From a virus, in IMG/VR virus record IMGVR_UViG_3300029787_000159, positions 1 through 35,949 of that record: a DNA stretch of 35,949 bases. The stretch is one strand, 5' to 3'. Under the pieces are notes generated by a model. The model was not told where the DNA came from. It searched no databases and was given only the letters and a program-made list of their open reading frames with translations. Positions 1 through 26,904 of the stretch are shown here, one piece after another (positions within the stretch are counted from its first letter, which is position 1; every line of letters begins with the position of its first letter). The translations under genes and the position numbers were made by a program.

Positions 1-876
1 TAATTCATTCAGTAATGTTTTAAAATGCCCACTATGTGCACCTGCTGTAGGGTATTCTTTAATAATTAAATTACCTTCAAAATCTTTGATCTCTTCGTAA
101 ATTTCTTGCTTAAAATTCTTAATATCGGATAACGGAAAGCCTGTGATACAGCTGTCATAACGATTTGCGATCACAGTATCTTGTAGCTCTAATGTATACT
201 GAACTACGGTTTTACCCTCACGTAACGCGGCGGCTCCAAGATGAACTAACACCATACTCTTGCCTGCGCCAGTCGGGGCAATCACAACACCCAACTCGCT
301 CTTACCTAAGCCCCCGCCAACAATTGCATCGATATCTTTCCAGCCAGTTGTAATTGGGTTTCTGTGCTTGGGCATAAACCGTTCTTCAAAATCCGCCATG
401 TAATCATAGCCAAAGTTGTTCTCAGAACCAAGCTTAAGTGAGTCGTTAATGACCTTAGAAATTTCATCAAATGAACAAGACTGAAGCAGTCCAACGGACT
501 TCATCATAGCTTCTTTAAGGTTCTGCTTGCGACAAAAATCTAGCGAAGTTTCCTTAATGTAATCATTGTCTTGAAGCTCGCGAGTGTGGATTCGTGCAAA
601 ATATTCACGCACTTGCTTTTGGATTACTTCATCTTCACTTTCAAGCTCGGTTCGCACGATTGTAACCATCGCTTCTACTGAGGGGTGGGTGTTGTATTTA
701 GCCCTGTATGTTACAATCTTCCGCAGAAAAACCTGAAGGTATTCCAATTCTAAAAAGTTAATGTCCAGCACCTCTGTGATTTGATCCGCGAACGGTCTAT
801 CCTCAAAGATAAGTTGAACAAGTCCCTCTTGAAAGGTTTTTCCATACCTTCCGAAGTTTGTTTTTTCTGCGATCAT
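1..876 (-). CDS. DnaB/gp41-like replicative helicase (3' end cut by window)
   Basis: Probable hexameric replicative DNA helicase that unwinds the fork. The 292 visible residues hold a DnaB-like helical N-terminal half and the start of the RecA-type ATPase domain. The Walker A motif APTGAGKS is at about residues 200-207, followed by VVQYTLELQDTVIANRYDS, matching the DnaB family's 'SLEM..R' region. The reading frame is open to position 1, so the Walker B and C-terminal parts lie outside. The ATG at 876 follows GAGGG by 5 bases. A sigma70-like promoter lies directly upstream (900-927), so the gene can be expressed separately from the exonuclease operon before it. T4 gp41 is the functional equivalent; sequence alone does not separate gp41 from DnaB ancestry. 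Confidence 0.88.
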   Translation of the reverse strand, partial: MIAEKTNFGRYGKTFQEGLVQLIFEDRPFADQITEVLDINFLELEYLQVFLRKIVTYRAKYNTHPSVEAMVTIVRTELESEDEVIQKQVREYFARIHTRELQDNDYIKETSLDFCRKQNLKEAMMKSVGLLQSCSFDEISKVINDSLKLGSENNFGYDYMADFEERFMPKHRNPITTGWKDIDAIVGGGLGKSELGVVIAPTGAGKSMVLVHLGAAALREGKTVVQYTLELQDTVIANRYDSCITGFPLSDIKNFKQEIYEEIKDFEGNLIIKEYPTAGAHSGHFKTLLNEL

Positions 877-941: not shown

Positions 942-1934
942 TTATTCACTTGCGTTGTCAGCGCACTCATAGTTAATTTTGTTTAATTGTGATTTGAGAT
1001 CTTCCCAATTCAACTCACCGAATCCGTCTTCCCGCATCATACGAATCAGCTCTGTCCTATTGAAATCACACTCAAAATTTTCTACAGCCTCTTGTGTAAA
1101 CTGCTTTGCCTGTACAGACATTTGAGGCGCGTAAAGTTGCATCATTTTATAGTTATGTTCCACCAAGTTTTTATTGTCAATCACGTTATTAAAGAATTGA
1201 ACACGTGATCCTTTTCTACTTTTAATACAATGATCAATAACGTCTGGGATATTATAGTCTTTGTCTTCGCCAAGGAACGGAAGTCGCTTTTGGATTGTTT
1301 TCAATCCGGCGCCCTTAATCCCTGGCAAGTTATCAGATGCGTCTCCAGCCATTGCCCGCGCCAGTGCCATATTGCGAGGGTGAACGCCGGTCGTTTCTAC
1401 AATGCGCTTTGTATTTAGCATCTCATTCACAGTTGGGCGCCAAAGTACAGTTTCTTCATCACATAACTGCATGAAATCCTTATCATTTGACACAATAATT
1501 TTCTGCCAGCCATCGTAATGCTTCATCTGTGTAACGTATGAAATAATATCATCAGCTTCTATCTGAGGAATTAAAACTTGGATGATTGGCATCTCGTTCA
1601 TGTATTCAATGATGCGTCTTTGCTGCCACATCTTATTGGCAAGCTCCTCATCTTCCGTCAGGTTGCGAATAGCGCGATTAAGGCGGATAGGCTTTCTGCC
1701 TGCCTTGTAGTTCTTGTCCATAGTCTTGCGCTTGCGGGATCCATCTGGGCCATCCCATGCAATAATAATATTATCAGGCTTTGTTTCCCGAACAAGCTTC
1801 TGTAAAATTTTGATAAACCCCTTCAGCCCACCAATCGGCTGTCCATTGGTAGACAATGACGGATCCACGATGTAAGCACGTAGGTATGCATTTAACGCGT
1901 CAATAATTAATACTCTCTTCATTGCTTCACTCAT
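942..1934 (-). CDS. 5'-3' exonuclease / flap endonuclease (T4 RNase H-like)
   Basis: Predicted 330-aa PIN/FEN-family nuclease that removes RNA primers and 5' flaps during lagging-strand synthesis. Acidic metal-binding clusters are visible in order: LIIDALNAY near the N-terminus, IIAWDGPDG, a basic arch (RKRKTMDKNYKAGRK), IEADDIISY and IVSNDKDFMQL. Then comes the helix-hairpin-helix GDASDNLPGIKGAGLKT typical of the family. Length is close to T4 RNase H (305 aa). I chose the ATG at 1934 (7 bases after GAGGAG) over a TTG at 1937; another ATG at 1922 begins the conserved core MKRVLIID. It overlaps the preceding 55-aa gene by 8 bases. Last gene of the deaminase/uvdE operon. Confidence 0.88.
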   Translation of the reverse strand: MSEAMKRVLIIDALNAYLRAYIVDPSLSTNGQPIGGLKGFIKILQKLVRETKPDNIIIAWDGPDGSRKRKTMDKNYKAGRKPIRLNRAIRNLTEDEELANKMWQQRRIIEYMNEMPIIQVLIPQIEADDIISYVTQMKHYDGWQKIIVSNDKDFMQLCDEETVLWRPTVNEMLNTKRIVETTGVHPRNMALARAMAGDASDNLPGIKGAGLKTIQKRLPFLGEDKDYNIPDVIDHCIKSRKGSRVQFFNNVIDNKNLVEHNYKMMQLYAPQMSVQAKQFTQEAVENFECDFNRTELIRMMREDGFGELNWEDLKSQLNKINYECADNASE

Positions 1935-2094
1935 CAATCTGCTCCTCTAATTGAGTAATTTGTTCTGCAATACCTGCCAATGCGCGCAAATTACCATTAC
2001 GTTGGTATTGCATTGCTTTCTCTTGTAGCTTTGCTATCTTTTTTCTAATTTTATTTTGCTTTCTTTTATTTAAAAAATCATTGAAAAATTTCAC
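1927..2094 (-). CDS. 55-aa protein, DUF6435-like
   Basis: Small gene starting with GTG at 2094, which overlaps the uvdE stop in a GTGA tetranucleotide. It ends inside the start of the exonuclease gene. An AGGTGG Shine-Dalgarno lies just upstream within the last uvdE codons. The product is a basic helix followed by a coiled-coil-like segment (AKLQEKAMQYQRNGNLRALA, then EQITQLEEQID). The spacing of K-LQ-K-A---QRNG--R--A-----I--LE resembles small DUF6435 proteins as I remember them; a profile search would settle this. The function of that family is unknown. The tight overlaps on both sides are the main evidence that the gene is real. Confidence 0.72.
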   Translation of the reverse strand: MKFFNDFLNKRKQNKIRKKIAKLQEKAMQYQRNGNLRALAGIAEQITQLEEQIDE

Positions 2095-3807: not shown

Positions 3808-4950
3808 TTACTCCTTGTGTGGTACTGTTAGATCCTCTGGTTCAGCGTAGTAAGCATCAGCGCTTCCTTCGCGTTTATCAAACTTTTGGATTATCTCTTC
3901 GTCCATTAGACGCATGACCCTACTCTTAAATTCACTATCATCTGAAATTAATTGTGTCCATTTGGATGGTTGGAACTTTTTCTCGTAGTCTCCCATCTTT
4001 AACGTATACCACGCACCAGCCGAAGTCAGATGCTCAGATGACTTAATCGCGTCAAACCAACTTTCTTCATCTCGGATACCAATCTCGTTACCCCACAGGA
4101 TGCGGAAGGCGCAGGATCTGCCCTGAGTACCAAAGCGAGACTTCTCAAGCTTGATCTTAACCTCCGATCCAATACGGAATCCCTTCTCGTCTACGACGAA
4201 CGAAGACTTAGCCTTGCGTCCGGTGAGCCAGATACGTAAAGAATAAGCATAATGCATAGCCTTCCCGCCTGGGGTAATATACGGAGTGGTCATCGCGACA
4301 ATGCGCGCTGTTGGCCCTTGTGGGATATTTGTCTTCAACTGATTAAGTACAATAAAAGTCGCCTGCTTATCCGCGATCGGGATGGTTAACTTAGACATGC
4401 CCTTTGCAAGAATACGTGCCTTCATAGCCATCGAGGATTGTGGGTTGAAGTCACCCTCAACATCAGAAACAGCGGGTGTAAATGCCAGCGAATCCCAAAT
4501 TAAAACAAGCTTCTCATCCGTAGCCCCCAGCAACTCCTCAATTGTTTCTAAGACAAACTCGACGGAGGATGCTTGAACATACATTAGTCGGCTCAAATCA
4601 CAGCCTGCTTCCTCTAGAAAAGTTGGATCGATTGCTGATTCAGAATCAAAATATACAACCAATTTTCCTTGCTTTTGAGCGTTGGCTGCGATTTGTGCAG
4701 CCATATAAGATTTACCTGTAGACTCCAACCCCGCAATTTCAGTTACCTTCCCCACGGGGATGCCTGCTCTTTGGCCCTTGCAAATAATGGAGTCAAGCCA
4801 TCGCGAGCCAGTTGGAATCCAATCTTTAACGGAGGTAGGATTGTCTCCGGTCAAATCGTGAGCGACATTTCTGCCGGCTTTCTTATTTACTAAGGTCATT
4901 AGATCTTGTAGTCCAACCCGACCTGCTTTTGTTTTTGTTTTCTTTGCCAT
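3808..4950 (-). CDS. uvsX: RecA/UvsX-like recombinase
   Basis: 380-aa strand-exchange ATPase for recombination-dependent replication and repair, acting on ssDNA together with the gp32-like SSB encoded just upstream. Walker A is GLESTGKS (residues 74-81, RecA GPESSGKT). The catalytic glutamate is in VVYFDSESAIDP (E104), Walker B in KLVLIWDSLA (147-156), and the loop-2/switch region includes FIVLNQLKTNI. Length is close to T4 UvsX (391 aa). ATG at 4950 preceded by AGAGGG. A terminator (4965-4997) lies between it and the lipoprotein gene and no separate promoter was seen, so expression may depend on readthrough from the strong ssb promoter. Confidence 0.93.
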   Translation of the reverse strand: MAKKTKTKAGRVGLQDLMTLVNKKAGRNVAHDLTGDNPTSVKDWIPTGSRWLDSIICKGQRAGIPVGKVTEIAGLESTGKSYMAAQIAANAQKQGKLVVYFDSESAIDPTFLEEAGCDLSRLMYVQASSVEFVLETIEELLGATDEKLVLIWDSLAFTPAVSDVEGDFNPQSSMAMKARILAKGMSKLTIPIADKQATFIVLNQLKTNIPQGPTARIVAMTTPYITPGGKAMHYAYSLRIWLTGRKAKSSFVVDEKGFRIGSEVKIKLEKSRFGTQGRSCAFRILWGNEIGIRDEESWFDAIKSSEHLTSAGAWYTLKMGDYEKKFQPSKWTQLISDDSEFKSRVMRLMDEEIIQKFDKREGSADAYYAEPEDLTVPHKE

Positions 4951-5185: not shown

Positions 5186-5956
5186 CTAGCCACTCATCAA
5201 TTCATCAAAAGCACGGTCAACATCGCTCTTACCATTGGCGGCGCCGTACTTGGCTGTCTCAGAAGAGCGACTTTCTGCGGAAGTATTTCCCGAAAGCTGC
5301 TCATCGAGGATTGCGTCGACCTGGGCTGGACTAAGACGATCAAATAGACCATCAAAGTCAGGCATGCGATCGAGGAGGGCGGGGATCGCTTCGCTATCTG
5401 CCAGGAGGGTGGACGTGTTTCGACGCATCTTTAGGTTTGTCTGAGGATACGCTCCAGGCTTGTTGGGCTTGGTGTAAGTAAGGGTAATATCTGTCCCTTC
5501 CTTAATATCGGTGATATCACCATACTCGGGATCCAAAATGTATCCCAAAAGTAGCTCATAAGCCTGCTTTCCGTAGCCGTAGACCTTGATACCCTCGTCT
5601 TCTCGACCACGAACAACAACTGGTGAGAAATAGCGGGTGCGCACAAAGAGTGACTTTGCAAGCTTCTTGCTTTCCTCGTCATTGTTGTCTACTCCCTCGC
5701 GCCATAGCGAAGAAGCAAATTCACATACGGGGCAATGCTCGCCAAAGTTGCGCTTTGGACAGAGGATTCCCCCGCGATGCTCGCCCACATTATAGTGGAA
5801 GAACATTTCCTTTAGTGGATCGCCATCATTCGTCGGCACGATCCGAATATCTGTATCGCCCTCATCTGGCTTAAACCAGGGTGAGTTTGCATCCTTGTTT
5901 CCTTCGCCGCGAAGGGATGCGAGCTTTCGTCGCATCAGTTCCATATCAATTCCCAT
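5186..5956 (-). CDS. gp32-like single-stranded DNA-binding protein
   Basis: 256-aa SSB of the T4 gp32 type that coats ssDNA at the fork and partners helicase, polymerase and UvsX. A basic N-terminal stretch (MRRKLASLRGEG) is followed by a zinc site resembling gp32's His-Cys3 pattern: H54 (or H60), C66, C75, C78 in CPKRNFGEHCPVC. The central region carries many aromatic residues, and the C-terminus is the expected acidic tail (DVDRAFDELMSG). The frame is open upstream to 6037, but the start is surely ATG 5956, 8 bases after AGGAG and downstream of the promoter at 6009-6037. Length is a little below T4 gp32 (301 aa). Confidence 0.92.
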   Translation of the reverse strand: MGIDMELMRRKLASLRGEGNKDANSPWFKPDEGDTDIRIVPTNDGDPLKEMFFHYNVGEHRGGILCPKRNFGEHCPVCEFASSLWREGVDNNDEESKKLAKSLFVRTRYFSPVVVRGREDEGIKVYGYGKQAYELLLGYILDPEYGDITDIKEGTDITLTYTKPNKPGAYPQTNLKMRRNTSTLLADSEAIPALLDRMPDFDGLFDRLSPAQVDAILDEQLSGNTSAESRSSETAKYGAANGKSDVDRAFDELMSG

Positions 5957-6008
5957 TTTAATTTCTCCTATTTGTTGGGTAAAGTAAATCAAGCTTTCCT
6001 TGATTTCT

Positions 6009-6037
6009 ATTGTATAACACTCAACGTAGCTTGTCAA
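6009..6037 (-). promoter_or_regulatory. sigma70-like promoter for ssb
   Basis: Minus strand: TTGACA (6037-6032), 17-base spacer, TACAAT (6014-6009). The stop codon TGA of the tubulin-like gene (6034-6036) lies inside the -35 box. The leader to the ssb ATG is about 46 bases. Confidence 0.88.
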
Positions 6038-6873
6038 GCGTATTGTTGTATTGCGTTAGTGTGGGCAACGCAGAGCCCAAAATCTTGATATTCTGTTTCA
6101 TAAATTGCATAAGAAATTTTACGAAATGCATTACGAGGCTTCTCTTTAAGCATGTCGACAATTTTCTTGTGCAATCCTCCTTCTTTTTCTAGTCTTTCTC
6201 TATTGATACATAAATAATAACATATGTCGCGGGACATGTCAAGCTCATAAAACCAATTTTCTTCTAAATTTTTTATGTTTACAGCACCATATGTTCTAAT
6301 GCGATTGATTTCAAGCGGCTTTGATGTCATGCCGATTTCTGGCTCTGCATGACTAAAATAATTAACATAATGAATCGTAGAAAAAATTGATTCATTAATT
6401 TTGTCATAATACAGCTTGATAGGTATATCTCCTAATGATTTCTCTATCATAACATTTGAAAGCACAGTGAAGCTTTTAAGCAGGCCTGATCTGGTATATT
6501 GTTGTAAAACACTAAACACTGCTTTGTCAACAAGTTTTGGTACTCCTGTCATCAAATCAGAGTCAGGGCAAATATAAAAAATATCAATCTTTTTATCTTT
6601 GATCTGCTCTAAAATGCCCAAGGAATAGTTCGAACTATATGAAGAACCGACAATAATAAATTGTACGTTTTCGTCAAGGTTGGCAAAGAACTTACTTACG
6701 TCTGGTATATTTTTTTCGTATTGTTCCGGATCTCCATAAGATTTAAGCTTGAACTTATATTTTGATCTTTTTTGAACACTACTGTTCATCATGTAAACAT
6801 TATAGTTCTTCGTTTGTTTAAATTTTTCTGCAATTTTTGATGCGGCAGATCCTAGGCCTATAATTGATATCAC
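6034..6873 (-). CDS. Degenerate tubulin/FtsZ-like protein
   Basis: 279 aa, start GTG 6873 overlapping the polymerase stop as GTGA. I read it as a divergent tubulin/FtsZ fold. The N-terminal strand-loop IIGLGSAASKIAEKF recalls FtsZ IGVGGGGSNAV. FIIVGSSYSSNYSLGILEQI (72-91) sits where the GTP signature GGGTGTG should be. FTVLSNVMIEK (135-145) matches 'LIvIPNdkLl'. YYDKINESIFSTI (155-167) matches the 'aF..aNdvL' helix. The C-terminal half, with a long helix and SYAIYETEYQDFGLCVAHTNAIQ, recalls the FtsZ C-domain. The glycine-rich GTP loop is lost, so GTPase activity is doubtful. This is inference from pattern and order, not a database match. Placement directly after the polymerase suggests a role at replication or in DNA positioning. 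Confidence 0.6.
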   Translation of the reverse strand: MISIIGLGSAASKIAEKFKQTKNYNVYMMNSSVQKRSKYKFKLKSYGDPEQYEKNIPDVSKFFANLDENVQFIIVGSSYSSNYSLGILEQIKDKKIDIFYICPDSDLMTGVPKLVDKAVFSVLQQYTRSGLLKSFTVLSNVMIEKSLGDIPIKLYYDKINESIFSTIHYVNYFSHAEPEIGMTSKPLEINRIRTYGAVNIKNLEENWFYELDMSRDICYYLCINRERLEKEGGLHKKIVDMLKEKPRNAFRKISYAIYETEYQDFGLCVAHTNAIQQYA

Positions 6874-8045
6874 AGCTTTATCTCGTTTAAATTATAATAG
6901 TCTTTTCCAGCCCGTAAATTAGCGACATAGCCATCTTCAAAAACATCACGAATCCCAATCACAATATCGCGATCTTTATCAGCATAATCAATGACTATCT
7001 CATCGTGAACAATGTGAGAAATAAATGACTTTTTACCCTCAAGCATTTTGTCTATTAAAACAGCTTTTTCCAATACACGATCCGCGGTTGTGCTTTGTAT
7101 TAAATAGTTCAATGCCTTCCTCTGCTCCACCTTGATTTTACGACCATATGGTGTATGAATATACCCGTCTTTATAATGTTTGTCAAGAACTTTTTCACGA
7201 TCATAATATTCTGATTCAATATCGTTTGATTCTGGATTATAGAGCCACGCAAAAAAATACAATTTGGCTTCTTCACGCGTCATTTGCATATCTTTAATAA
7301 CGTTCTGAACGTTCCATTCATGAATGTCATATTCGGGCTGATCTTGTCCACATAAATCTAGCAGTGTGCGAATTTCAGCGCCGTTATAATCAAGGCTCAT
7401 CATCAAATCATTATGGGGCTTGATTATGCGCCGCAAATCCTTTTTTAATGTAAGCACGGGAAAGGACTCTGGATGTGTTGTTAACCTTCCTGTGATTGTT
7501 CCGAACATGTTGTAATCGATACGGTTATAATTCTTGGTTAGCTCTTGAATTTTTTGGCGATTCATCGATGAATAAAATAAGTGTTTACAATCTTCGCTGT
7601 TGAGATTAAGCTTCTGGTAGCGAATTTTGTGAAGCAGCTTATATACTGAATCTAAGTGATCATAATTATTTGGTTTTTCATAAGTTTCAAATACATGCTC
7701 TGTAATCTTGTTTTTGATTTCGCAGAACTGAGTAAGAAAATCGTGCGGTATTAAATCAAACACGCAATGATCGGCCATATTAACTTTGGCAATTTTAAAA
7801 GACTTCAAATAAGCCTTCATTTTTCTAATTGTAGCCTGAAGTTCATTACATAAATCTTCTGGGCAGCAATCGGCAATATTACGCCCTCCCGCACGTATCC
7901 AGGCATACTCTATCGCTGGGTCCGTAATAGAGGCACTATAGCGCCATGTTTTTGTTAAATTATCTGGAAAATTATCAAACGACAGCTTGCCATCTGTATA
8001 AATTCCAACACATTCTGACTTATCGTCAAGCGCTTGGAATATCAA
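6870..8045 (-). CDS. Short family A DNA polymerase (no proofreading domain)
   Basis: 391-aa replicative DNA polymerase candidate. Family A motifs: FGTITGRLTT (181-190), motif A LDYNGAEIRTL (catalytic D219, E224), a fingers-helix region with MTREEAKLYFFAWLY (255-269; K261 replaces the usual RxxxK), HTPYGRK (297-303), NYLIQSTTADRVL (313-325) and motif C IVHDEIV (HDE 347-349). Pol I-type phage enzymes usually have 600 residues or more. Here only ~180 residues precede the TGR motif, and the DxE exonuclease motifs are not visible. The TTG start at 8045 overlaps the previous stop (TTGA) and has GGAGGTGG six bases upstream. T4 relatives normally carry a family B enzyme. Confidence 0.88.
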   Translation of the reverse strand: MIFQALDDKSECVGIYTDGKLSFDNFPDNLTKTWRYSASITDPAIEYAWIRAGGRNIADCCPEDLCNELQATIRKMKAYLKSFKIAKVNMADHCVFDLIPHDFLTQFCEIKNKITEHVFETYEKPNNYDHLDSVYKLLHKIRYQKLNLNSEDCKHLFYSSMNRQKIQELTKNYNRIDYNMFGTITGRLTTHPESFPVLTLKKDLRRIIKPHNDLMMSLDYNGAEIRTLLDLCGQDQPEYDIHEWNVQNVIKDMQMTREEAKLYFFAWLYNPESNDIESEYYDREKVLDKHYKDGYIHTPYGRKIKVEQRKALNYLIQSTTADRVLEKAVLIDKMLEGKKSFISHIVHDEIVIDYADKDRDIVIGIRDVFEDGYVANLRAGKDYYNLNEIKL

Positions 8046-9334
8046 TAACCACCTCCACCAGCGGCGCCTGTATCAATAGTAATGGCTGGGATTCTTTCAT
8101 CTTCAAAAGCTTTTCGTAAAAACGCATCATAATGTTTTCTATGATAATCGAAAGAGCCGTTTTTGTCAATAGTGGATGATATAATTTTTTCAAAAATTGT
8201 TAACGGCGCTGACAATCCACCCTTAGACTCGCGTAACCTTAAGCAATCTTTTATTAATTTTTCTCTCTCATTATCTGGCATTTCCGGCTTTTGTTCATGG
8301 ATCCGCATTCTCATATAAAATCTTAATAAGCTTTCTTCTGAAATATCGTCAAAAAATGTTAGCTTGGTATATTTTTTTGGTCTTTTAGTTGTTTGCACAA
8401 TTTTTCCATTATCGCAATGTTTTCTTTCAAGATATTGAGGACTTACACATAGGTTATAAAGGTGTAAAATGTCATCAATTATTGTTGAAAGGTATGTATT
8501 AGTTGCAAAAGAGTAGCCTAATTCTATTAAAGGATATCCTCCTATATATATTGAAACATCTTTGTTAGCTTCTGTAATCATTATATCTGAATTAATATCA
8601 GCGACTAATCGCCAAGGGTACCTCTTATCTATCATAAAACCATAAGAATTACATGCATTTACAAAGTACGCCCAATTTCGGTTATGTATAAAATTTTCAA
8701 CCTTAGCAAGATCGTTAGAGTATCTTAAATCTGCAATTTCAATCGCTAATCCTGTGCACATTATATCACAAAATCTACTTTTAATAAAGCTTGGATATGT
8801 AAAAGGCACTTCTGATACAGTTTTAAATATTTCATTTTCTAAAACGGTTAAAAACTGCGTCATATTTGTTAAATTTTCCGGTCGAACTGAGGACTTAATT
8901 GAAAGCGCAATTTCTTCAAAGTAGGTTTCCTTGTAATTTCTGTAACGCGTTAATGGACTGTCATAGCCCTTGTGAACAGATAAATTTGATAAGTATTTTT
9001 CGTTTGGTGAAATTTTTTCCTGCATAGCATCTTTATCAAATTGCGCTGCCATTGCTTCAAAGACCCTAACTACAAAATTGAAAGCTCTTTGGGGTCGTTC
9101 TTTGCTTTTACTCTTTTTAAAAACACCTAAGTTTCTTGGATTGATCATTGAAACTGGTATGTGATCCATATTCATTCTTCCATAAAATATAAATTCTCCA
9201 TAATTAAAATTTTTAACATTTAAAGCTGATTGTTCACTAACCATTTTTTCGTATACTGCTTTTTTGTAAAAAACATCATGCGTCCGGTCAAAATTATTTT
9301 GTATTAATCGAAGTTGATTGTCGTTCTCTATCAT
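8042..9334 (-). CDS. Unknown 430-aa protein coupled to the polymerase
   Basis: I do not recognise a domain with certainty. The protein is rich in Asn, Tyr and Phe, with no signal peptide or membrane segment. A central stretch (YGFMIDKRYPWRLVADINSD, then a helical region) resembles conserved uncharacterised phage proteins that I associate with virions, but this is a recollection only. The C-terminus is TIDTGAAGGGGY, and its Gly codons form the GGAGGTGG Shine-Dalgarno of the polymerase gene. The ATG at 9334 follows AAGGAG by six bases. It lies between the baseplate genes and the polymerase, so it may be either a virion component or a replication partner. Confidence 0.75.
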   Translation of the reverse strand: MIENDNQLRLIQNNFDRTHDVFYKKAVYEKMVSEQSALNVKNFNYGEFIFYGRMNMDHIPVSMINPRNLGVFKKSKSKERPQRAFNFVVRVFEAMAAQFDKDAMQEKISPNEKYLSNLSVHKGYDSPLTRYRNYKETYFEEIALSIKSSVRPENLTNMTQFLTVLENEIFKTVSEVPFTYPSFIKSRFCDIMCTGLAIEIADLRYSNDLAKVENFIHNRNWAYFVNACNSYGFMIDKRYPWRLVADINSDIMITEANKDVSIYIGGYPLIELGYSFATNTYLSTIIDDILHLYNLCVSPQYLERKHCDNGKIVQTTKRPKKYTKLTFFDDISEESLLRFYMRMRIHEQKPEMPDNEREKLIKDCLRLRESKGGLSAPLTIFEKIISSTIDKNGSFDYHRKHYDAFLRKAFEDERIPAITIDTGAAGGGGY

Positions 9335-19913: not shown

Positions 19914-22850
19914 TTAATCATCAAAAGATGCGCCTGTCGATGTAATGACAAAATCAATTGCAATAAACTCAATAGCTCTTGCGGGCTTAACCATAATCTT
20001 GGCATACATAATGTTTTGATCAACCAAATCTGGTGTTGTTGTGGTATCATCAAGAATTAAACGATAATCGGTGATACCGAACTGAACTTTAACGTTTGCC
20101 AAGAAAGGCTCTATTAGTCCCTTGAATCTCGTCCATGTTGCTTGAACATTCTGCTCAAATAATACATTGGTCGAAAGAATGGAAATCTGCTTCTTAAGGT
20201 AGATAGCCAATCTCCTAACGTTAATTCTATCGAGAGCGCTTTGACGCTCTTGAAGAGTCTTTTGACCAAAGACCACAATTCCTGTTGATGGGAAGGTGGC
20301 AATTGGATTGATTCTATTTTCATAAAGAATGTCTCTCTCTTTAGAGGTTAATCTTTCTGTGACATTGACTACCGACACACCAGCGGCACCATCGGATAGA
20401 CCTCCGCGATTGAATCCTGCAGGAGCAAACCAAACGTCTGAAGCCGCCTGTGAGCTTCCAAAAACACCTAGCATGGCAACAGATGGCGGGATCCAAACTA
20501 ATTGGCCACTTGGCTCGTCGCGAGTTTGTACCCATGGATAGAAAGTGCAACCATAGCTAGAGTCTAATCTTCTATTTCGCAACGCTGTTGCTGCAGCAGT
20601 TGGGGTTGTGCCTATTCTTGAAGATTTTGAGCTTTGATATGATTCGTGTGGAGGAATGTAAACGTTTGCTAAATCAATTATACCTAAAGAATCCGCTCTT
20701 TCCTCACAAACATTAATTATGTGTGTTGTTAGTGCATCTTTGGTCAGACCGGGCATTGTCAGCACATTCATGTCAACCATCTCTGGATCTGCCACAGTAT
20801 CAATAGCGCGCTTAATCGTATGATACGTATAGCTTGAAATATCAGCGGTACCGATTCCATCATTATAAAATGGATCTGGTTTAGTAATATCTACCGCATC
20901 GTGGCCACCCCAGAATGGAGCTGTGAATCTATTAATATCTTCATCAATGAGGGTTTTATACGTGTTTGTGCTTGTTGCAGTATAGCTTGTTTCACCTGCA
21001 CGGGATCCAGAGCTATAATAATAACCACCAGCCTCTGTATCCTTAACAATATCATCCATTGAGAAAATGTAACACCAGCTATCCACTCCAGCGATGGTAG
21101 AGCCGACCGGATCTGAATTCAATGATGTAAGCCATAATCTATGTGGATCAGCCACATCGCTAGAGGCACGGGTGCTTGTTTGCGTTCTAGTTGTGCGCAT
21201 TCCGAAGTATGCGTTAGTTTGATCTGCAAGACCTCCGTCAGATGACGAGTGTCTAAGCCTAACTTTTGGAAACAAAAGCGAACCAGTCATAGTCGCTTCG
21301 TGATAATCAGACATAATAGCGCCAGAAAGCAAAGTAAAGAAGCTATCTGTTGCGCTGGCCAAATCAGCTGAGGCACCAGCGACTAAGCCATCGATATATA
21401 CATATCTATTTTTAATTGCATTATATCCGTCCACTGACGATCCGGTGACACCGCTCCAGCTTAGAATGTCTGTGAATTTGGGGGGTCCATAGTATCCGAA
21501 TGGCAGTAGCAGGGAGTCAGTGGCTCCGCGATCTATCTCGTCGTTCATCTCAACATAAACATATTTAGATTGATTTGGGTATTCTCCATATTGCTTTAAT
21601 CTTCTCGCTGTGCCGTCCCACTCATGATAAACATCACCAATTCTTCTTGCGATGTAGTCTGGTGATGTTGGATCAAGCGTAAGGTTATCAAATCTTTCAA
21701 GTATTACAACGTTATTATCCGTATCTCTTAAGCTTCGTATTAAGACAGAAAACGTTCCATAATCAGTATTTGACGTTGTGGAGGCGCGAATTTTTGAAAT
21801 TGAAACTTTGCAATTTTTGCTTAACCACTCACCGTGGCCGCGGCCAAGAAGTCTGAAAAGCTTAGTAGCAGACTCTGGCGAATAACTTGTGGCTGTCCCC
21901 AAGTCTTGGCCGATAAACCATCCAGCAACCGCTTCGTTATAGTTAATTCCGGTCATATCTTGGGGACCAGCGGCTGAAGAGCCTGAAGCAATGGGTAGCA
22001 TAACAGCTTGTGTTTCTGCAGAAGTTACATCAGTACCTCCACCAGTGAGAGAACCACTAACTCCTTCTCTAAGACTTTGCTCAAAAGTCTCTCCAAGCCA
22101 ATAAACTTTTTCAGAGGCAGCAGGATAAAAAGTGTTTGCGCCAGTATTTCCAAGTTGAGGATTGGTGTTGAACCTCTTGCGAATAAAATATTCAGAGTCG
22201 TCATCAAAATTAAATGTAACTTTTTCAGAACTTCCATCAGAACTTGTAATAAATGCTGTATAAAGACCATCGGATGTCGAACCAACGACAACACCGACAC
22301 CATTAGCTGTGCCGGTAGACCCAGTTGTTCCGCGCATATTCCCACTTAAATAAATTGCAGAACCAGAATCAATGTACCAAACTGCAGCAAGAGAGCCGGT
22401 GCCCAGATGAATAGAGGAGCCAGATTCAAAAACCCACATACCATAAGCACCGCCATTAGCAAAAATATCTCTAGCTGGGGTTTGTGTTGTTTTCCAGCCG
22501 GCTTCCCCTGCTGTTGTGGCGTTGGAATCCTGTGTTCCTAATAATCTTACATAAGTCAAAGGTGCAACATTTGAGTTCAGGAACGCTTTTGCTGCGTATG
22601 TTCCGTACATTGGAGATTGATAGTTTCCATCACGGTATACATCACCCCCACTGTTTCCTGGCACAGTATCACCATATAATTCGACAAATTCTGAATACGA
22701 CTGCACTTTTATTGGCTGCATTGCAAGACCACGACTGGCGCGCCCAATGACAACCGGACCAATTGCGTCGGCCGATTTTGGTATAAAGGAGTTATCAATT
22801 TCGTTGATAAATACCCCAGGAGATACAAATTTAAAGCTCTTTACTGACAT
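19914..22850 (-). CDS. Contractile tail sheath protein (gp18-like)
   Basis: 978 aa. The N-terminus SPGVFINEIDNSFIPKSADA with GPVVIGRASRG, then the helix FVELYGD, is the standard sheath start. The C-terminal core is also typical: NRINPIATFPSTGIVVFGQK, RRLAIYLKKQISILSTNVLF, FGITDYRLILDDTTT, and a final AIEFIAIDFVITSTG strand. It is about half as long again as T4 gp18 (659 aa). The extra length lies between about residues 115 and 700 and is Ser/Thr/Gly/Tyr-rich and beta-like, so probably surface-exposed domains. The ATG at 22850 follows GAGGG by eight bases. Confidence 0.95.
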   Translation of the reverse strand: MSVKSFKFVSPGVFINEIDNSFIPKSADAIGPVVIGRASRGLAMQPIKVQSYSEFVELYGDTVPGNSGGDVYRDGNYQSPMYGTYAAKAFLNSNVAPLTYVRLLGTQDSNATTAGEAGWKTTQTPARDIFANGGAYGMWVFESGSSIHLGTGSLAAVWYIDSGSAIYLSGNMRGTTGSTGTANGVGVVVGSTSDGLYTAFITSSDGSSEKVTFNFDDDSEYFIRKRFNTNPQLGNTGANTFYPAASEKVYWLGETFEQSLREGVSGSLTGGGTDVTSAETQAVMLPIASGSSAAGPQDMTGINYNEAVAGWFIGQDLGTATSYSPESATKLFRLLGRGHGEWLSKNCKVSISKIRASTTSNTDYGTFSVLIRSLRDTDNNVVILERFDNLTLDPTSPDYIARRIGDVYHEWDGTARRLKQYGEYPNQSKYVYVEMNDEIDRGATDSLLLPFGYYGPPKFTDILSWSGVTGSSVDGYNAIKNRYVYIDGLVAGASADLASATDSFFTLLSGAIMSDYHEATMTGSLLFPKVRLRHSSSDGGLADQTNAYFGMRTTRTQTSTRASSDVADPHRLWLTSLNSDPVGSTIAGVDSWCYIFSMDDIVKDTEAGGYYYSSGSRAGETSYTATSTNTYKTLIDEDINRFTAPFWGGHDAVDITKPDPFYNDGIGTADISSYTYHTIKRAIDTVADPEMVDMNVLTMPGLTKDALTTHIINVCEERADSLGIIDLANVYIPPHESYQSSKSSRIGTTPTAAATALRNRRLDSSYGCTFYPWVQTRDEPSGQLVWIPPSVAMLGVFGSSQAASDVWFAPAGFNRGGLSDGAAGVSVVNVTERLTSKERDILYENRINPIATFPSTGIVVFGQKTLQERQSALDRINVRRLAIYLKKQISILSTNVLFEQNVQATWTRFKGLIEPFLANVKVQFGITDYRLILDDTTTTPDLVDQNIMYAKIMVKPARAIEFIAIDFVITSTGASFDD

Positions 22851-22900
22851 TACGTTGTCCCTCTTTTGAAAAATGAGTTAATTGATGTCTCAATCTAATT

Positions 22901-22914
22901 TAAATAGTATTTTT
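22901..22914 (-). promoter_or_regulatory. ACTATTTA element before the sheath gene
   Basis: Minus strand AAAAATACTATTTA, 51 bases before the sheath ATG. Of the four copies this is the one closest to the T4 late promoter TATAAATACTATT. Confidence 0.5.
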
Positions 22915-22966
22915 AATCTCAAAAAGCTACCTGTATGTTAAGAAAACAAGTTTTTCACTTCAGGAA

Positions 22967-23839
22967 CTAGTCGTCAAAAAAACTAAAGTTTCCGGCGGGC
23001 ACATCTAACTCGGCTGGAAACTGATATTCTACAACATTTTCATCAATTCTTACAATAGGACGATCGTCACTGGCACCTTCTCCAACCAAGTGGCCTAACA
23101 CCTTTATAGTTATCTCACTTGTAAATTGCCTAATCTCTTCGCCAAGGTTGCTCACATTATTATTATGAGTAAATCCTTGATCAATAAAGCCCTCATACAA
23201 ATGTCCGTTTCTGCGCATAAGAAATCCATTAATCTGACCAGTTCTTGTGATAAATGGTGCCATTAAATCATTCATCTGCTGTTGATACTCAGTCTTTAAA
23301 ACAATTTTATAATCAACATTAACATATACAGGAATTGGTATCGATAAAGATCTGATTACAACTTTTTTATTTACTCTTGGGTAATATTTCTGTCTTTTAT
23401 GCTGAGTAGCATTTCTCGTTCCAGATGCAATTGCAAAATTTTGTGTTTTTTGGGGCACTATTTTTTGAGCAACAACCATTCTGCCAGCACGACCATTTTT
23501 ATCATTAGAGTACAAATGCGCTTGAAAAGAACCTTTTCTAGATGGATCTTTTGTGATTCCAGTTCTTTCAACACTAACAAGAGGTAGCTTTAAAGCACCA
23601 GCGTGGTCTCGCAAATCTTTATCATGTTTAATTTGAAAAGCTCTTTCTGGAGCTTGCCAAAGAATATTGATTTTTTTAAAAGAATCTTCAGTATGAGAAG
23701 ATAGCTCTAAATCTTTAACCCAATCAAACATCGCTCGATCAATGTCTTCAATTGAAGAACCTAACATTCCCACTTCGCTCAAGCTATAGTTGGCACTACC
23801 TGAAGGAAGTAAGGCAAAATCAAAATTATCAGGTAGCAT
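22967..23839 (-). CDS. Tail completion/sheath stabiliser (gp15-like)
   Basis: 290 aa. Recognition is by position and by the C-terminal half: QQQMNDLMAPFITRTGQING, then GHLYEGFIDQGFTHNNNVSN and IRQFTSEITIKVLGHLVGEG. This 'lm.pf ... Y...I...f...n..........E..I.V.GYL' plan is that of gp15/gp3-type tail-end proteins as I remember them. The N-terminal half is helical (IDRAMFDWVKDLELS) with a basic linker. Start chosen as ATG 23839, eight bases after GAGGG, rather than TTG 23842. It overlaps the neck gene by 11 bases and lies just before the sheath gene, as expected for a cap that binds sheath and tube. Confidence 0.65.
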   Translation of the reverse strand: MLPDNFDFALLPSGSANYSLSEVGMLGSSIEDIDRAMFDWVKDLELSSHTEDSFKKINILWQAPERAFQIKHDKDLRDHAGALKLPLVSVERTGITKDPSRKGSFQAHLYSNDKNGRAGRMVVAQKIVPQKTQNFAIASGTRNATQHKRQKYYPRVNKKVVIRSLSIPIPVYVNVDYKIVLKTEYQQQMNDLMAPFITRTGQINGFLMRRNGHLYEGFIDQGFTHNNNVSNLGEEIRQFTSEITIKVLGHLVGEGASDDRPIVRIDENVVEYQFPAELDVPAGNFSFFDD

Positions 23840-24317
23840 CAAAAAGACCCTCTCTTGCTCTCTTGCATGTGGCAGCTATTTCAAATTCTTTACCAGCTTG
23901 GCCAAATAAAAGTTTCGGTTCTGCAAGTTTAACTATCTCGTAAAAATATTCTCCGTACAAAACAAAATCTCCTTCCCGAACATATAGATTTTGATCAGAC
24001 TCAAGTCTTCTTTTGTGAAAATGAACAATAATCTCCCAAGTTTTATCAATGCCAGCACTTTCAAGGTAACTCGTAGAATAATCAGTAAACTCAACCAAAG
24101 CATAAACTCTTATAGGAGGTAAATATGTTTTTTCAATGGCTTCTCCATATAAATCATGAAAATTCGTTGTTTGCATATCAATTGGATAGTAAAGTATTTG
24201 TTGACCAATGACTTTTTCGATCAACTCATCATTTACTTGTTTTACAAGATCCCGCTCTTTTTTACCTAAGAATAAAGGAGGAGGTGGATTTTTTGGTTTT
24301 TTCCATTCATCAGCCAT
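23829..24317 (-). CDS. Neck / head-closure protein (gp14-like)
   Basis: 162 aa. After a Pro-rich leader (KKPKNPPPPLFLGKKER), the core has LIEKVIGQQILYYPIDMQTT, NFHDLYGEAIEKTY, and then beta strands VYALVEFTDYS, WEIIVHFHKRRL and REGDFVLYGEYFYEIVKL. The 'YYpiD...ndLYGEA..K.Y..pi.v.a.v' pattern occurs in neck proteins of T4-like phages. The order gp13-like, gp14-like, gp15-like here matches T4. Its ATG at 24317 lies six bases after the stop of the preceding gene, within the run GGATGATGATAA. Confidence 0.7.
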   Translation of the reverse strand: MADEWKKPKNPPPPLFLGKKERDLVKQVNDELIEKVIGQQILYYPIDMQTTNFHDLYGEAIEKTYLPPIRVYALVEFTDYSTSYLESAGIDKTWEIIVHFHKRRLESDQNLYVREGDFVLYGEYFYEIVKLAEPKLLFGQAGKEFEIAATCKRAREGLFDAT

Positions 24318-24323
24318 TTATCA

Positions 24324-25604
24324 TCATCCTACAAATATGGGCAACGGAGTGATTTTTAAAACGTTAGTAGCTGCGTCAGCAAGTTCTTGATCTGATTTGG
24401 CCAATGCGGCGTATTCAACCTCCTTAAGCATCTCTCTAAGCTTTTCTTTAAGTTCCGTTTGTTCTTCTTTTGCTTGAGATAGCAATTCTGAATGATTTAA
24501 CGTAACGCTCTCTCCTGGAATCGGCATTGTGGTAAATTTACCACGAATTTGCCCTAACATTTCTTTACAAAGCGCGAGAGCATACTTTCTAATCCATTGC
24601 TTACCCATAGAATTAATATTTTCGTATGGTAAATTTTCAAATGGCACAGTATTAATATTATTTATACCCTCAACACCAACATCATATGAGCCAGTAGCAA
24701 AAGCCGCTTGATCAACGTAAAATTTAACCCAAATTCTATCATTAAGGCCATCCATACCATAGCTACTTGGTGTTGGAAACAGTCTTAATTTTCCATCAAT
24801 TAGTTCGTAAGAATAGTGGGATGTGCGTGTAAAAATAGAGTCCTCATACATAATAGCTTGCATTTTATTTTGCCAAGTTGGAATAATTTCGAACGTAGAA
24901 TCATCAGCAAATTGTCCATATGTGGAATAGTTTCCTACCACTCCCACACCACCGTAATAGCCGTAAAAACGCCACATAGCCCTTGGAGAGCGATAAAAAA
25001 CTTTAGTTACAAGAACACGCTTACGTCCGACTTTTCCTGCGTAAGGCACAACGTTTCCAGCTTGATCAGTTCCTGTGGACGATGCATCTTGAATTATTTG
25101 CTGTATATTATAATCTTGTTGATCTTGTATTGGTTGAAACGATGCTGAATATTGAGGAACTGTTCCTCCAAATCCACCTGCCGCGGCGGCGCCATCGCCT
25201 ACTCTTCGTGAATAACCAAGACTAAATCTTGGATACTTCAAGTTTGAGCCACTAACGGCATCAGTGCCATCAATGAATTCGCCTTTATGATCAAACGTTC
25301 CAGATTGCTCACCCAATACAGACGAAAGAACGTTTTTTCCTTGATGAAGATTAATAATATACGAATATTCCAATACAGCCTCTTCGTAAGCTGCATATAC
25401 ATTATCTGCAGTTAATTCAATATCAACAACATCACCGCCAAGTTTTTTATAAACGTAAGCAACTTGTGCTGCAGCGCCACTTACAAAAGCAATAGACCCA
25501 GTGTACATTCCAAACGGTAATGAGCCTGTTACTAATTCTGTTGAACCAGTTGAAGTTAGCACTATTGCGCTGGTTTCAGCTGTTGGATTAAGGTTTATAG
25601 GCAT
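24324..25604 (-). CDS. Neck protein (gp13-like)
   Basis: 426 aa. An N-terminal Ser/Thr/Gly-rich part leads to ADNVYAAYEEAVLEYSYIIN, a helix found in connector-adaptor proteins. Next come the aromatic strands VTKVFYRSPRAMWRFYGYYG, the segment WQNKMQAIMYEDSIFTRTSHY and KLRLFPTPS. The helical C-terminus (WIRKYALALCKEMLGQIRGK, then SELLSQAKEEQTELKEKL) is a strong match in style to T4 gp13 family proteins. It is longer than T4 gp13 (309 aa). The start ATG 25604 follows GGGAG by ten bases. Followed at short spacing by the gp14-like gene. Confidence 0.75.
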   Translation of the reverse strand: MPINLNPTAETSAIVLTSTGSTELVTGSLPFGMYTGSIAFVSGAAAQVAYVYKKLGGDVVDIELTADNVYAAYEEAVLEYSYIINLHQGKNVLSSVLGEQSGTFDHKGEFIDGTDAVSGSNLKYPRFSLGYSRRVGDGAAAAGGFGGTVPQYSASFQPIQDQQDYNIQQIIQDASSTGTDQAGNVVPYAGKVGRKRVLVTKVFYRSPRAMWRFYGYYGGVGVVGNYSTYGQFADDSTFEIIPTWQNKMQAIMYEDSIFTRTSHYSYELIDGKLRLFPTPSSYGMDGLNDRIWVKFYVDQAAFATGSYDVGVEGINNINTVPFENLPYENINSMGKQWIRKYALALCKEMLGQIRGKFTTMPIPGESVTLNHSELLSQAKEEQTELKEKLREMLKEVEYAALAKSDQELADAATNVLKITPLPIFVG

Positions 25605-25637
25605 AAAATAAGTTCTCCCAATCTAATTAGTTCTCAT

Positions 25638-25665
25638 AAAACAAAACCCCAGACAAGCTGAGGAC
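25638..25665 (-). terminator. Intrinsic terminator after the basic protein gene
   Basis: Minus strand CCTCAG, CTTGT loop, CTGGGG (one G-U pair), followed by TTTTGTTTT. It separates the H1-like gene from the neck genes. Confidence 0.75.
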
Positions 25666-25689
25666 TGTTTTACAAAGATTTTAACTATT

Positions 25690-26013
25690 TTATGCACTTG
25701 CACTAGTTACTTTCTTTTTTGCGGCCTTTTTTCTTGTAGAAGTGGATCTTTTTCTTGTAGGGCCCGCAGTTTTCTTTGCTGTTGCTTTTTTAATCTTAGG
25801 CTTGGGGGCACGTGGCGCTTCTAAAGCTTGTGCATCGCTTGGGCTCTCAACCTTTACAGTAGAAACTTCAACAACCTGTTCTTCAACAATGTCAGGCTCC
25901 TCTGATACCTCTAATGAAGATTCTAAGCTCATTAAAAATTTATTTCTAGGATGGTTGGCGTGCTTAGCGTTAAACTTTGCTTTGGCGCAATTTAGTCTTC
26001 TTTTCTTACCCAT
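25690..26013 (-). CDS. Histone-H1-like basic protein
   Basis: 107 aa. Three zones are visible: a basic N-terminus (MGKKRRLNCAKAKFNAKHAN), an acidic Val/Glu/Ser-rich middle (EEPDIVEEQVVEVSTVKVE), and a C-terminal tail of Lys/Ala/Pro/Thr repeats (KPKIKKATAKKTAGPTRKRS, then TRKKAAKKKVTSASA). The tail is of the kind seen in H1 and bacterial Hc1/AlgP-like proteins. Start is ATG 26013, six bases after AGGAG; the frame is open to 26064 but lacks a Shine-Dalgarno there. It sits between the decoration and neck genes, so it may be packaged with DNA or act in head assembly. DNA binding is inferred from composition only. Confidence 0.78.
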   Translation of the reverse strand: MGKKRRLNCAKAKFNAKHANHPRNKFLMSLESSLEVSEEPDIVEEQVVEVSTVKVESPSDAQALEAPRAPKPKIKKATAKKTAGPTRKRSTSTRKKAAKKKVTSASA

Positions 26014-26102
26014 AAAAAACTCCTGTTTTGTGTAGTAACTAGTACAAAAAAGCAAAAATCTCAAAAATTTACCGGCGAAAAAATTTGACAGATCAACATT
26101 TT

Positions 26103-26137
26103 AAAAAAAACCCCCAACCATTTGGAAGGGGGTTTAA
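26103..26137 (-). terminator. Intrinsic terminator after the decoration gene
   Basis: Minus strand AAACCCCC and GGGGGTTT form an 8-bp stem (loop partly pairing CCAA/TTGG), continuing into a run of eight T. It ends the unit of the 188-aa gene. Confidence 0.88.
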
Positions 26138-26173
26138 AAGACAACAAAATAAATATTTATTAATATTAAATTA

Positions 26174-26740
26174 TTAAATACCAGTTGCCGAAGTTGAAGC
26201 TGCGTCTGGGGCTGGAGTTCCTGTAGTAACGAGAGCGTGGGCCTCTACAAACACTGTATTTGCGCCAAAATATGTAAACGTGTAAACCGAACCTGCGGCT
26301 CCGCCACCACCTGTGGCATCGTTTGCATCAATAGCGATGACCTTGGAGTTGCTTGTAATTGCAAAGCTAATGTTTTCATCTCCTGCGGCGGCGTCGAGGG
26401 CGCCCACAGTAAGGTTACCTGTCATTACCGTAGATCCAGCATTTGTAAATCCAAGCTTTCTAGCTGTGGTGCTTGATCCTGCGGAATAAATAATTTTAAT
26501 AACCATACCTGCATTAGCAGCGGTAGCTTGAGGTAGCGTAACGTTTCCGTCGATCGTTCCTGTATAGATAACAGTCAAATCGCTGGTTGTAGCTGTTAAA
26601 TCATGCGCTGTCGTAGCGGAGCGAACTGTAACATTAGTTTTTCTAGCGTTTTTAAACGAGGCTCCATTCCAATCAATCTCTCTCTTCAAATTCTCTAATA
26701 ATGCCTCGATTCTCGCGAGACCTACTCTTTTACTTCCCAT
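26174..26740 (-). CDS. Probable capsid decoration / head structural protein
   Basis: 188 aa, directly after the major capsid gene. A short helix (ARIEALLENLKREIDWNGAS) is followed by a beta-rich, Ser/Thr/Ala/Gly-rich domain: DLTVIYTGTIDGNVTLPQAT, ANAGMVIKIIYSAGSS, ending with a low-complexity TTGTPAPDAASTSATG tail. The 'G..TLP.a..n.G....i' pattern also occurs in the 234-aa fibre-like protein at 29988-30692, so the fold may be shared. I infer decoration from location and composition; a small head fibre is the alternative. ATG at 26740 follows GGAGG. It has its own structured ~95-base leader and candidate late promoter. Confidence 0.6.
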   Translation of the reverse strand: MGSKRVGLARIEALLENLKREIDWNGASFKNARKTNVTVRSATTAHDLTATTSDLTVIYTGTIDGNVTLPQATAANAGMVIKIIYSAGSSTTARKLGFTNAGSTVMTGNLTVGALDAAAGDENISFAITSNSKVIAIDANDATGGGGAAGSVYTFTYFGANTVFVEAHALVTTGTPAPDAASTSATGI

Positions 26741-26834
26741 GTTAAAAACCCTCCATTTATAATCGTGTCACCGCATAATTGCGGCCGTGCCTTTATATGC
26801 ACGTAATAACTTAGGATGAACTTTCGTTCACCTA
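26741..26834 (-). other. Structured 5' leader with three hairpins
   Basis: Between the ACTATTTA element and the ATG, the minus strand holds TGAAC-GAAA-GTTCA (26830-26817, a GAAA tetraloop), GTGC-N8-GCAC (26802-26787) and CCGCA-ATTA-TGCGG (26784-26771). The Shine-Dalgarno GGAGG follows unpaired. This is the longest leader in the late region. Confidence 0.55.
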
Positions 26835-26845
26835 TAAATAGTTTT
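26835..26845 (-). promoter_or_regulatory. ACTATTTA element before the decoration gene
   Basis: Minus strand AAAACTATTTA, continuing TAGG, ten bases after the capsid-gene terminator (26855-26882). Candidate late promoter. Confidence 0.5.
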
Positions 26846-26854
26846 AGATAAACG

Positions 26855-26882
26855 AAAGCCCCCGTCAATTGACGGAGGCTTT
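26855..26882 (-). terminator. Hairpin terminator after the major capsid gene
   Basis: Minus strand AAAGCCTCCGTCAA pairs with TTGACGGGGGCTTT over 14 bp with one G-U pair, leaving only a minimal loop. The T run after it is short (CTTTCGTTT), so it may partly act as a 3' stabiliser of the capsid mRNA. Confidence 0.78.
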
Positions 26883-26904
26883 ACATTTATTTTGCTACTA
26901 GGGT

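Follow-up and report, generated by a model that had tools for sequence, protein, structure and literature searches.

A virus record of 35,949 bases (the window, meaning the whole stretch of DNA analysed here) carries, directly behind a DNA polymerase gene, the gene of a protein with the predicted fold of the tubulin/FtsZ superfamily and without its GTP signature. Computation established the modelled fold, the absence of the T4 and T7 motifs and helix H8, the strict pairing with the polymerase, and the purifying selection on the gene, and it showed that these phages also encode a second, canonical tubulin. This protein, hereafter called pseudo-tubulin, is tentatively regarded as a non-polymerising structural or accessory subunit of the phage replisome. 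The features of the replication operon in which it is encoded are the following:

1..876, minus strand: DnaB-like replicative helicase, truncated at the window edge (phrog_19, 9.9e-37)
942..1937, minus strand: 5'-3' exonuclease of the FEN / RNase H type (phrog_107, 2.4e-30)
3808..4950, minus strand: UvsX/RecA-like recombinase
5186..5956, minus strand: gp32-like single-strand DNA-binding protein (SSB; PF08804, 1.9e-14), likely true start ATG 5956
6034..6873, minus strand: pseudo-tubulin, 279 aa, GTG start, stop at 6034-6036
6870..6873, minus strand: GTGA, four bases common to both genes, with the pseudo-tubulin start (GTG) and the polymerase stop (TGA)
6870..8045, minus strand: family-A DNA polymerase (PolA), 391 aa, exonuclease domain not seen (PF00476, 9e-12; phrog_17, 1.8e-18)
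8042..9334, minus strand: 430-aa protein of unassigned function, fast-evolving (no Pfam match; median 33% identity)

All the segments from which the initial annotation had read a tubulin-like protein are found in the open reading frame (ORF) at 6034-6873, and both its length of 279 residues and its GTGA coupling to the polymerase ORF at 6870-8045 were confirmed. Motifs A, B, and C are readable in the 391-aa family-A polymerase. The 430-aa protein, whose gene lies between those of a large protein of 1498 aa and of the polymerase, is far more variable than its neighbours.

The pseudo-tubulin ORF did not arise by chance, since its length and frame are kept about constant across more than 500 IMG/VR loci and its dN/dS is low (~0.05-0.1, with dN of 0.07-0.17 and synonymous change near saturation). 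It is a real gene under purifying selection. A protein scan of IMG/VR returned 44 relatives, and profile scans with three different lead sequences gave at least 526, at least 451, and at least 554 confirmed ones; their identity to the pseudo-tubulin of the window ranges from ~45% to 91% with almost no change in length. The family is widespread in uncultured viruses of microbes and has remained unannotated. No relatives were found by tblastn in 50,697 phage records or in a scan of 84,980 prokaryote species genomes, and neither Microcystis phage Mel-JY01, whose UvsX is the nearest, nor Bacillus phage G showed a match in a search that had no positive control. Sequence searches of Pfam, PHROG, and PDB yielded no significant relative. 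The tubulin profile PF00091 did not match the window at E<=0.001 and matched one of 36 family members at E 0.1, while the PhuZ profile phrog_4733 was absent from the pseudo-tubulin matches up to E 1. In a scan led by divergent members, the best 80 relatives listed all had at least 59% identity, and no form with an intact GTP loop was among them. No report of the family was found in the open-access literature.

The relationship to tubulins becomes apparent at the level of structure. An AlphaFold2 model built from a 72-member alignment has a mean pLDDT of 93.0 and a pTM of 0.91, and it combines a Rossmann-like N-domain sheet, a long H7, and a C-domain sheet in the element order of tubulin and FtsZ (S1-H1-S2...S6-H7-S7-S8-H10-S9-S10). 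S4 was placed at residues 69-75, followed by H4, S5, and H5; S6 at 134-139, followed by H6; and H7 at 152-175. With Foldseek against PDB, the top 50 rows were all FtsZ, CetZ, or TubZ (best E 1.7e-12, TMq 0.72). VIA-align gave its best Z of 23.9 with CetZ 3zid, over 257 residues at ~12% identity, and Z of 21-22.5 with TubZ, FtsZ, and tubulins at 9-16% identity, in each case across residues 1-279. Among the viral structures of BFVD, the best match was an uncultured phage FtsZ (6.3e-14) and the third was PhuZ of phage Noxifer (2.1e-8). The full two-domain tubulin/FtsZ fold is strongly supported by the model, and the AlphaFold prediction and fold search suggested along with the initial annotation have borne out the similarity over both domains, with neither a plain Rossmann enzyme nor a match limited to one segment as their outcome. 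A Rossmann-type oxidoreductase or dehydrogenase in place of a tubulin could be read from weak Pfam matches within the first 40-116 residues (GARS_N 0.0094, F420_oxidored 0.15, all under the curated cut-offs), but it can hardly be the correct identity: the top structure rows belong solely to the tubulin superfamily and extend over all 279 residues, and oxidoreductases appear in BFVD only from E 4e-3 onward, with TMq of at most 0.41. A dehydrogenase-type identity was rejected on the result of the fold search, provided that the model is right; the F420_oxidored score is 13.1 bits against a curated cut-off of 21.6. Given that profile searches overlook phage tubulins, published counts of these proteins are likely too low.

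The following elements of the pseudo-tubulin coding sequence carry the comparison with functional tubulins:

6844..6858, minus strand: T1 loop, residues 6-10 (GLGSA), G6 99% and G8 100% conserved, placed from the DSSP of the model
6628..6648, minus strand: degenerate T4 loop, residues 76-82, GSSYSSN instead of GGGTGTG
6349..6420, minus strand: central helix H7, residues 152-175, with Y/F156 and invariant N160
6301..6348, minus strand: former T7/H8 segment, residues 176-191, modelled as coil, invariant acid absent
6058..6120, minus strand: strands S9-S10, residues 252-272 (KISYAIYETEYQDFGLCVAHT), the best-conserved region

The GGGTGTG loop, whose absence had been noticed in the window, is indeed missing (G76-S-S-Y-S-S-N82 stands in its place), and the family as a whole gives strong support to the proposed loss of the GTP signature: in the 72 aligned members T4 reads GSSxS[SA]N (G76 to N82) and never GGGTGTG, and the T4 signature GGGTG[ST]G of active GTPases does not occur in pseudo-tubulin. 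The T7 loop (NxDxxD/E) and H8 are missing as well, residues 176-191 having no invariant acid and forming no H8 in the model, from which H9 seemingly is gone too. An acidic residue, which could be a weak remnant of T7, occurs at position 188 in ~87% of the weighted sequences. T4, T7, and H8 are the elements that make the inter-subunit GTPase contact in tubulin-like filaments (PMC3678025). Because these filament contacts are degenerate in both sequence and model, GTP-driven polymerisation by pseudo-tubulin appears unlikely, and with the signature GTP binding has likely been lost. Some nucleotide binding may nevertheless persist, since the residues of the base pocket are conserved. G6 and G8 in T1, N140 in T6 at the end of S6, and Y/F156 and N160 in H7 are kept in 96-100% of the sequences; by position in the model elements and by textbook spacing, we take N140, Y/F156, and N160 to match the guanine-contact residues N206, Y224, and N228 of tubulin.

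This conservation is one argument for a nucleotide switch or sensor, in which a phosphate loop of Ser and Asn residues would let the pocket bind a nucleotide (GTP, a dNTP, or an alarmone), and this binding would regulate the polymerase with no polymerisation involved. In addition, T4 and T5 are conserved though changed, and the T1, T4, and T5 pocket loops together are conserved above average. This last test is borderline, however (p ~0.05), and fails when T2 and T3 are added (p 0.84), and structural constraints alone could hold the pocket residues in place, so that a switch is considered rather improbable. The C-domain sheet S8-S10 is by far the most conserved region of pseudo-tubulin (p ~0.002) and for this reason is the best candidate for a partner surface.

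A further proposal, made with the initial annotation, was that the protein acts as a decoy or inhibitor of host FtsZ and blocks division of the infected cell. The FtsZ-like fold would suit such a function, and phage inhibitors of FtsZ are known, such as lambda Kil (PMC3961180). Yet the gene lies strictly within a DNA-replication operon, its divergence tracks that of the polymerase at the same rate, and the longitudinal elements T4, T7, and H8 expected of an FtsZ mimic have not been kept. The decoy found no support in these results and is very unlikely. The non-GTPase scaffold suggested alongside it is, from sequence and model, plausible.

The association with the polymerase is strict. In 166 of 166 loci the polymerase gene lies directly upstream of the pseudo-tubulin gene with a 4-base overlap (ATGA in 146, GTGA in 15, TTGA in 5), and when loci were collected by the polymerase alone, the pseudo-tubulin gene followed directly downstream in 80 of 80; the coupling first read from the window is thereby supported across the family. 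The gp32-like SSB is encoded next after pseudo-tubulin in 285 of 286 loci, followed in order by UvsX, the FEN-type exonuclease, and the DnaB-like helicase. The only exception (L136:5986-7429) has an insertion of ~1.4 kb between pseudo-tubulin and SSB. The apparent absence of SSB downstream in 37 loci was dismissed as an effect of over-long start choice, as all but one of these cases vanish with a homology-based start. In the window, the first-start SSB ORF (5186-6037) overlaps the pseudo-tubulin stop, and homology puts the true start at ATG 5956.

Pseudo-tubulin and the polymerase also diverge at equal rates (mean distances of 0.617 and 0.625), about twice those of SSB and UvsX (0.27 and 0.25). 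In partial distance correlations, pseudo-tubulin agrees best with the polymerase (0.42), ahead of UvsX (0.31) and SSB (0.27). Each of four records of 190-196 kb has a single PolA and no PolB over the cut-off, and the PolA exonuclease domain was not found in these near-full-length records. No gp45-type clamps were found in them either, a weak negative given that a good positive control was lacking for the profiles. In phage Mel-JY01, a protein of 24% identity occupies the place corresponding to that of the polymerase, and its motif C is poorly conserved.

A replisome subunit is favoured because the two genes are strictly paired and overlap at stop and start, the two proteins diverge at equal rates, and the filament motifs have been lost. 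Pseudo-tubulin would be made right after the sole detected DNA polymerase of the phage, by coupled translation across the 4-base overlap. Presumably no longer a polymerising GTPase, it may have been recruited as an accessory factor, and it would most likely bind the polymerase, or a complex of polymerase and SSB, through its C-terminal sheet S8-S10. Family-A polymerases are known to recruit unrelated folds, namely thioredoxin in T7 Pol and a relative of aminoacyl-tRNA synthetases in Pol gamma (PMC4419789); the likeness of pseudo-tubulin to the thioredoxin of T7 gp5 and to Pol gamma-beta would be one of functional analogy alone.

Several points weigh against a replisome subunit. Genes adjacent in an operon do not necessarily encode interacting proteins, overlaps of 4 bases are frequent in phages, and the correlation with the polymerase exceeds those with UvsX and SSB just slightly. 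The conserved pocket residues would also allow a nucleotide-dependent role, and the weakness of the clamp searches as negatives counts here too. Moreover, thioredoxin-fold proteins (L433-L439), possible polymerase cofactors as in T7, are encoded in all four 190-196 kb records and could serve the polymerase in the same way, which calls for caution in ascribing processivity to pseudo-tubulin.

The same phages encode a second tubulin of a canonical type. A PF00091 search of five large contigs revealed one further tubulin gene in each of the three largest. Its product of 378-383 aa has a T1 of GVGGGGNK, a T4 of GGGGGTGSS, and a T7-like SFDSKDLE (D270xxD273), and matches FtsZ at 3.5e-10 (phmmer). 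Two of the three canonical tubulins pass the Pfam tubulin cut-off in hmmscan, and the third scores 32.4 against 33 bits. At least 93 relatives exist in IMG/VR. The gene lies directly behind that of a gp46/SbcC-like ATPase (named from its sequence), again with a 4-base overlap. Members of this group (L176:1297-2448, L177:1297-2448, L178:1309-2445, L181-L260) share a conserved acidic N-terminal extension and 80-91% identity, and among isolates only gp138 of Bacillus phage G is weakly similar.

Both tubulins are present in nine of the nine contigs able to show both (G001, G002, G003, G006, G007, G009, G010, G011, and the 44.6-kb contig of L006/L205), in all of which the canonical gene lies 38.8-45.0 kb upstream of pseudo-tubulin on one strand. 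One gene is missing in eleven records (G004, G005, G008, G012-G019), where the partner would fall beyond the contig end. In the window, the expected place of the canonical gene is at ~45-52 kb, past the window end, and its absence there says nothing for this reason. In G007 (195,459 bases; L262, L277), the two genes have the expected spacing only when the sequence is read as a circle, so that the record likely represents a near-complete, circularly permuted genome of ~195 kb.

This arrangement brings up a role as cytoskeletal adaptor: pseudo-tubulin would dock on, cap, or co-assemble with the canonical filaments and tether the polymerase, and a phage spindle would position the replicating DNA. 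The constant co-occurrence of the two genes 39-45 kb apart on the same strand supports this idea, as do the features of the canonical tubulin, which is detectable by Pfam, matches FtsZ, and has GGGGGTGSS and the T7-like acids intact. Each tubulin, moreover, follows a DNA-metabolism gene (PolA and the gp46/SbcC-like ATPase, respectively) with a 4-base overlap. On the other hand, the degenerate longitudinal elements T4, T7, and H8 make ordinary protofilament contacts and co-polymerisation unlikely, and profile–profile comparison of the two tubulins aligned S1-H1 alone, with no significant similarity. An adaptor is conceivable but on balance unlikely. A two-tubulin system in which the canonical protein forms filaments, the polymerase-coupled pseudo-tubulin is the replisome-side receptor, and the spindle carries or anchors the replication machine is likewise an unlikely, if conceivable, arrangement. 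The model of the canonical tubulin, made from a shallow alignment, has a pLDDT of 46.

Several known systems are close enough to be compared with pseudo-tubulin. With CetZ, FtsZ, and TubZ (3zid, 1fsz, 2xka) it has in common the two-domain fold and the central H7 (Z 21-24); it differs in its ~12% identity, the lack of a significant Pfam or PHROG match, its compact 279 aa, the missing GGGTG[ST]G, T7 acids, H8, and H9 (in the model), and its location in a phage replication operon. The canonical tubulin of the same phages shares with it the genomes, the strand, and the 4-base overlap behind a DNA-metabolism gene, but has 383 aa, intact T4 and T7, and a Pfam-detectable sequence. Motif loss as such is not without precedent, as archaeal FtsZ-family paralogs without the motifs have already been noted (PMC2875224). 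The FtsZ of Nitrosopumilus maritimus (Nmar_1262) has neither the GTP loop (AGKAGSA instead) nor the T7 loop and failed to polymerise when made in yeast (PMC3684127); it resembles pseudo-tubulin in its motif loss but is a cellular archaeal protein with no reported link to a polymerase.

Descriptions of phage tubulins have come mainly from jumbo phages that form a nucleus (PMC9123017, PMC11835377), where PhuZ is a filament-forming GTPase (PMC3678025, PMC4244570). PhuZ and the phiKZ TubZ are also phage-encoded tubulin folds from phages of ~190 kb or more, whereas pseudo-tubulin has no GTPase motifs and no match to the PhuZ profile. A review of jumbo phages mentions two distinct FtsZ/tubulin representatives among them (PMC7824862), a different matter from two in a single genome, and the open-access literature yielded no description of a phage tubulin that lacks the motifs and is linked to a polymerase. 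An uncultured phage group represented by hundreds of IMG/VR contigs carries two proteins of the predicted tubulin fold, one devoid of the GTPase motifs and strictly coupled to the replicative polymerase. If pseudo-tubulin is indeed part of the replisome, the tubulin fold would here be put to a new use, and phages with two tubulins would allow a direct test of whether the phage cytoskeleton is physically joined to phage replication.

The pseudo-tubulin phages appear T4-like rather than PhiKZ-like, with gp32, UvsX, a sheath, and a major head protein. A T4-like contractile-tail structural module occupies positions 19914-28689 of the window and comprises the sheath, the tube downstream of it, and the major head protein.
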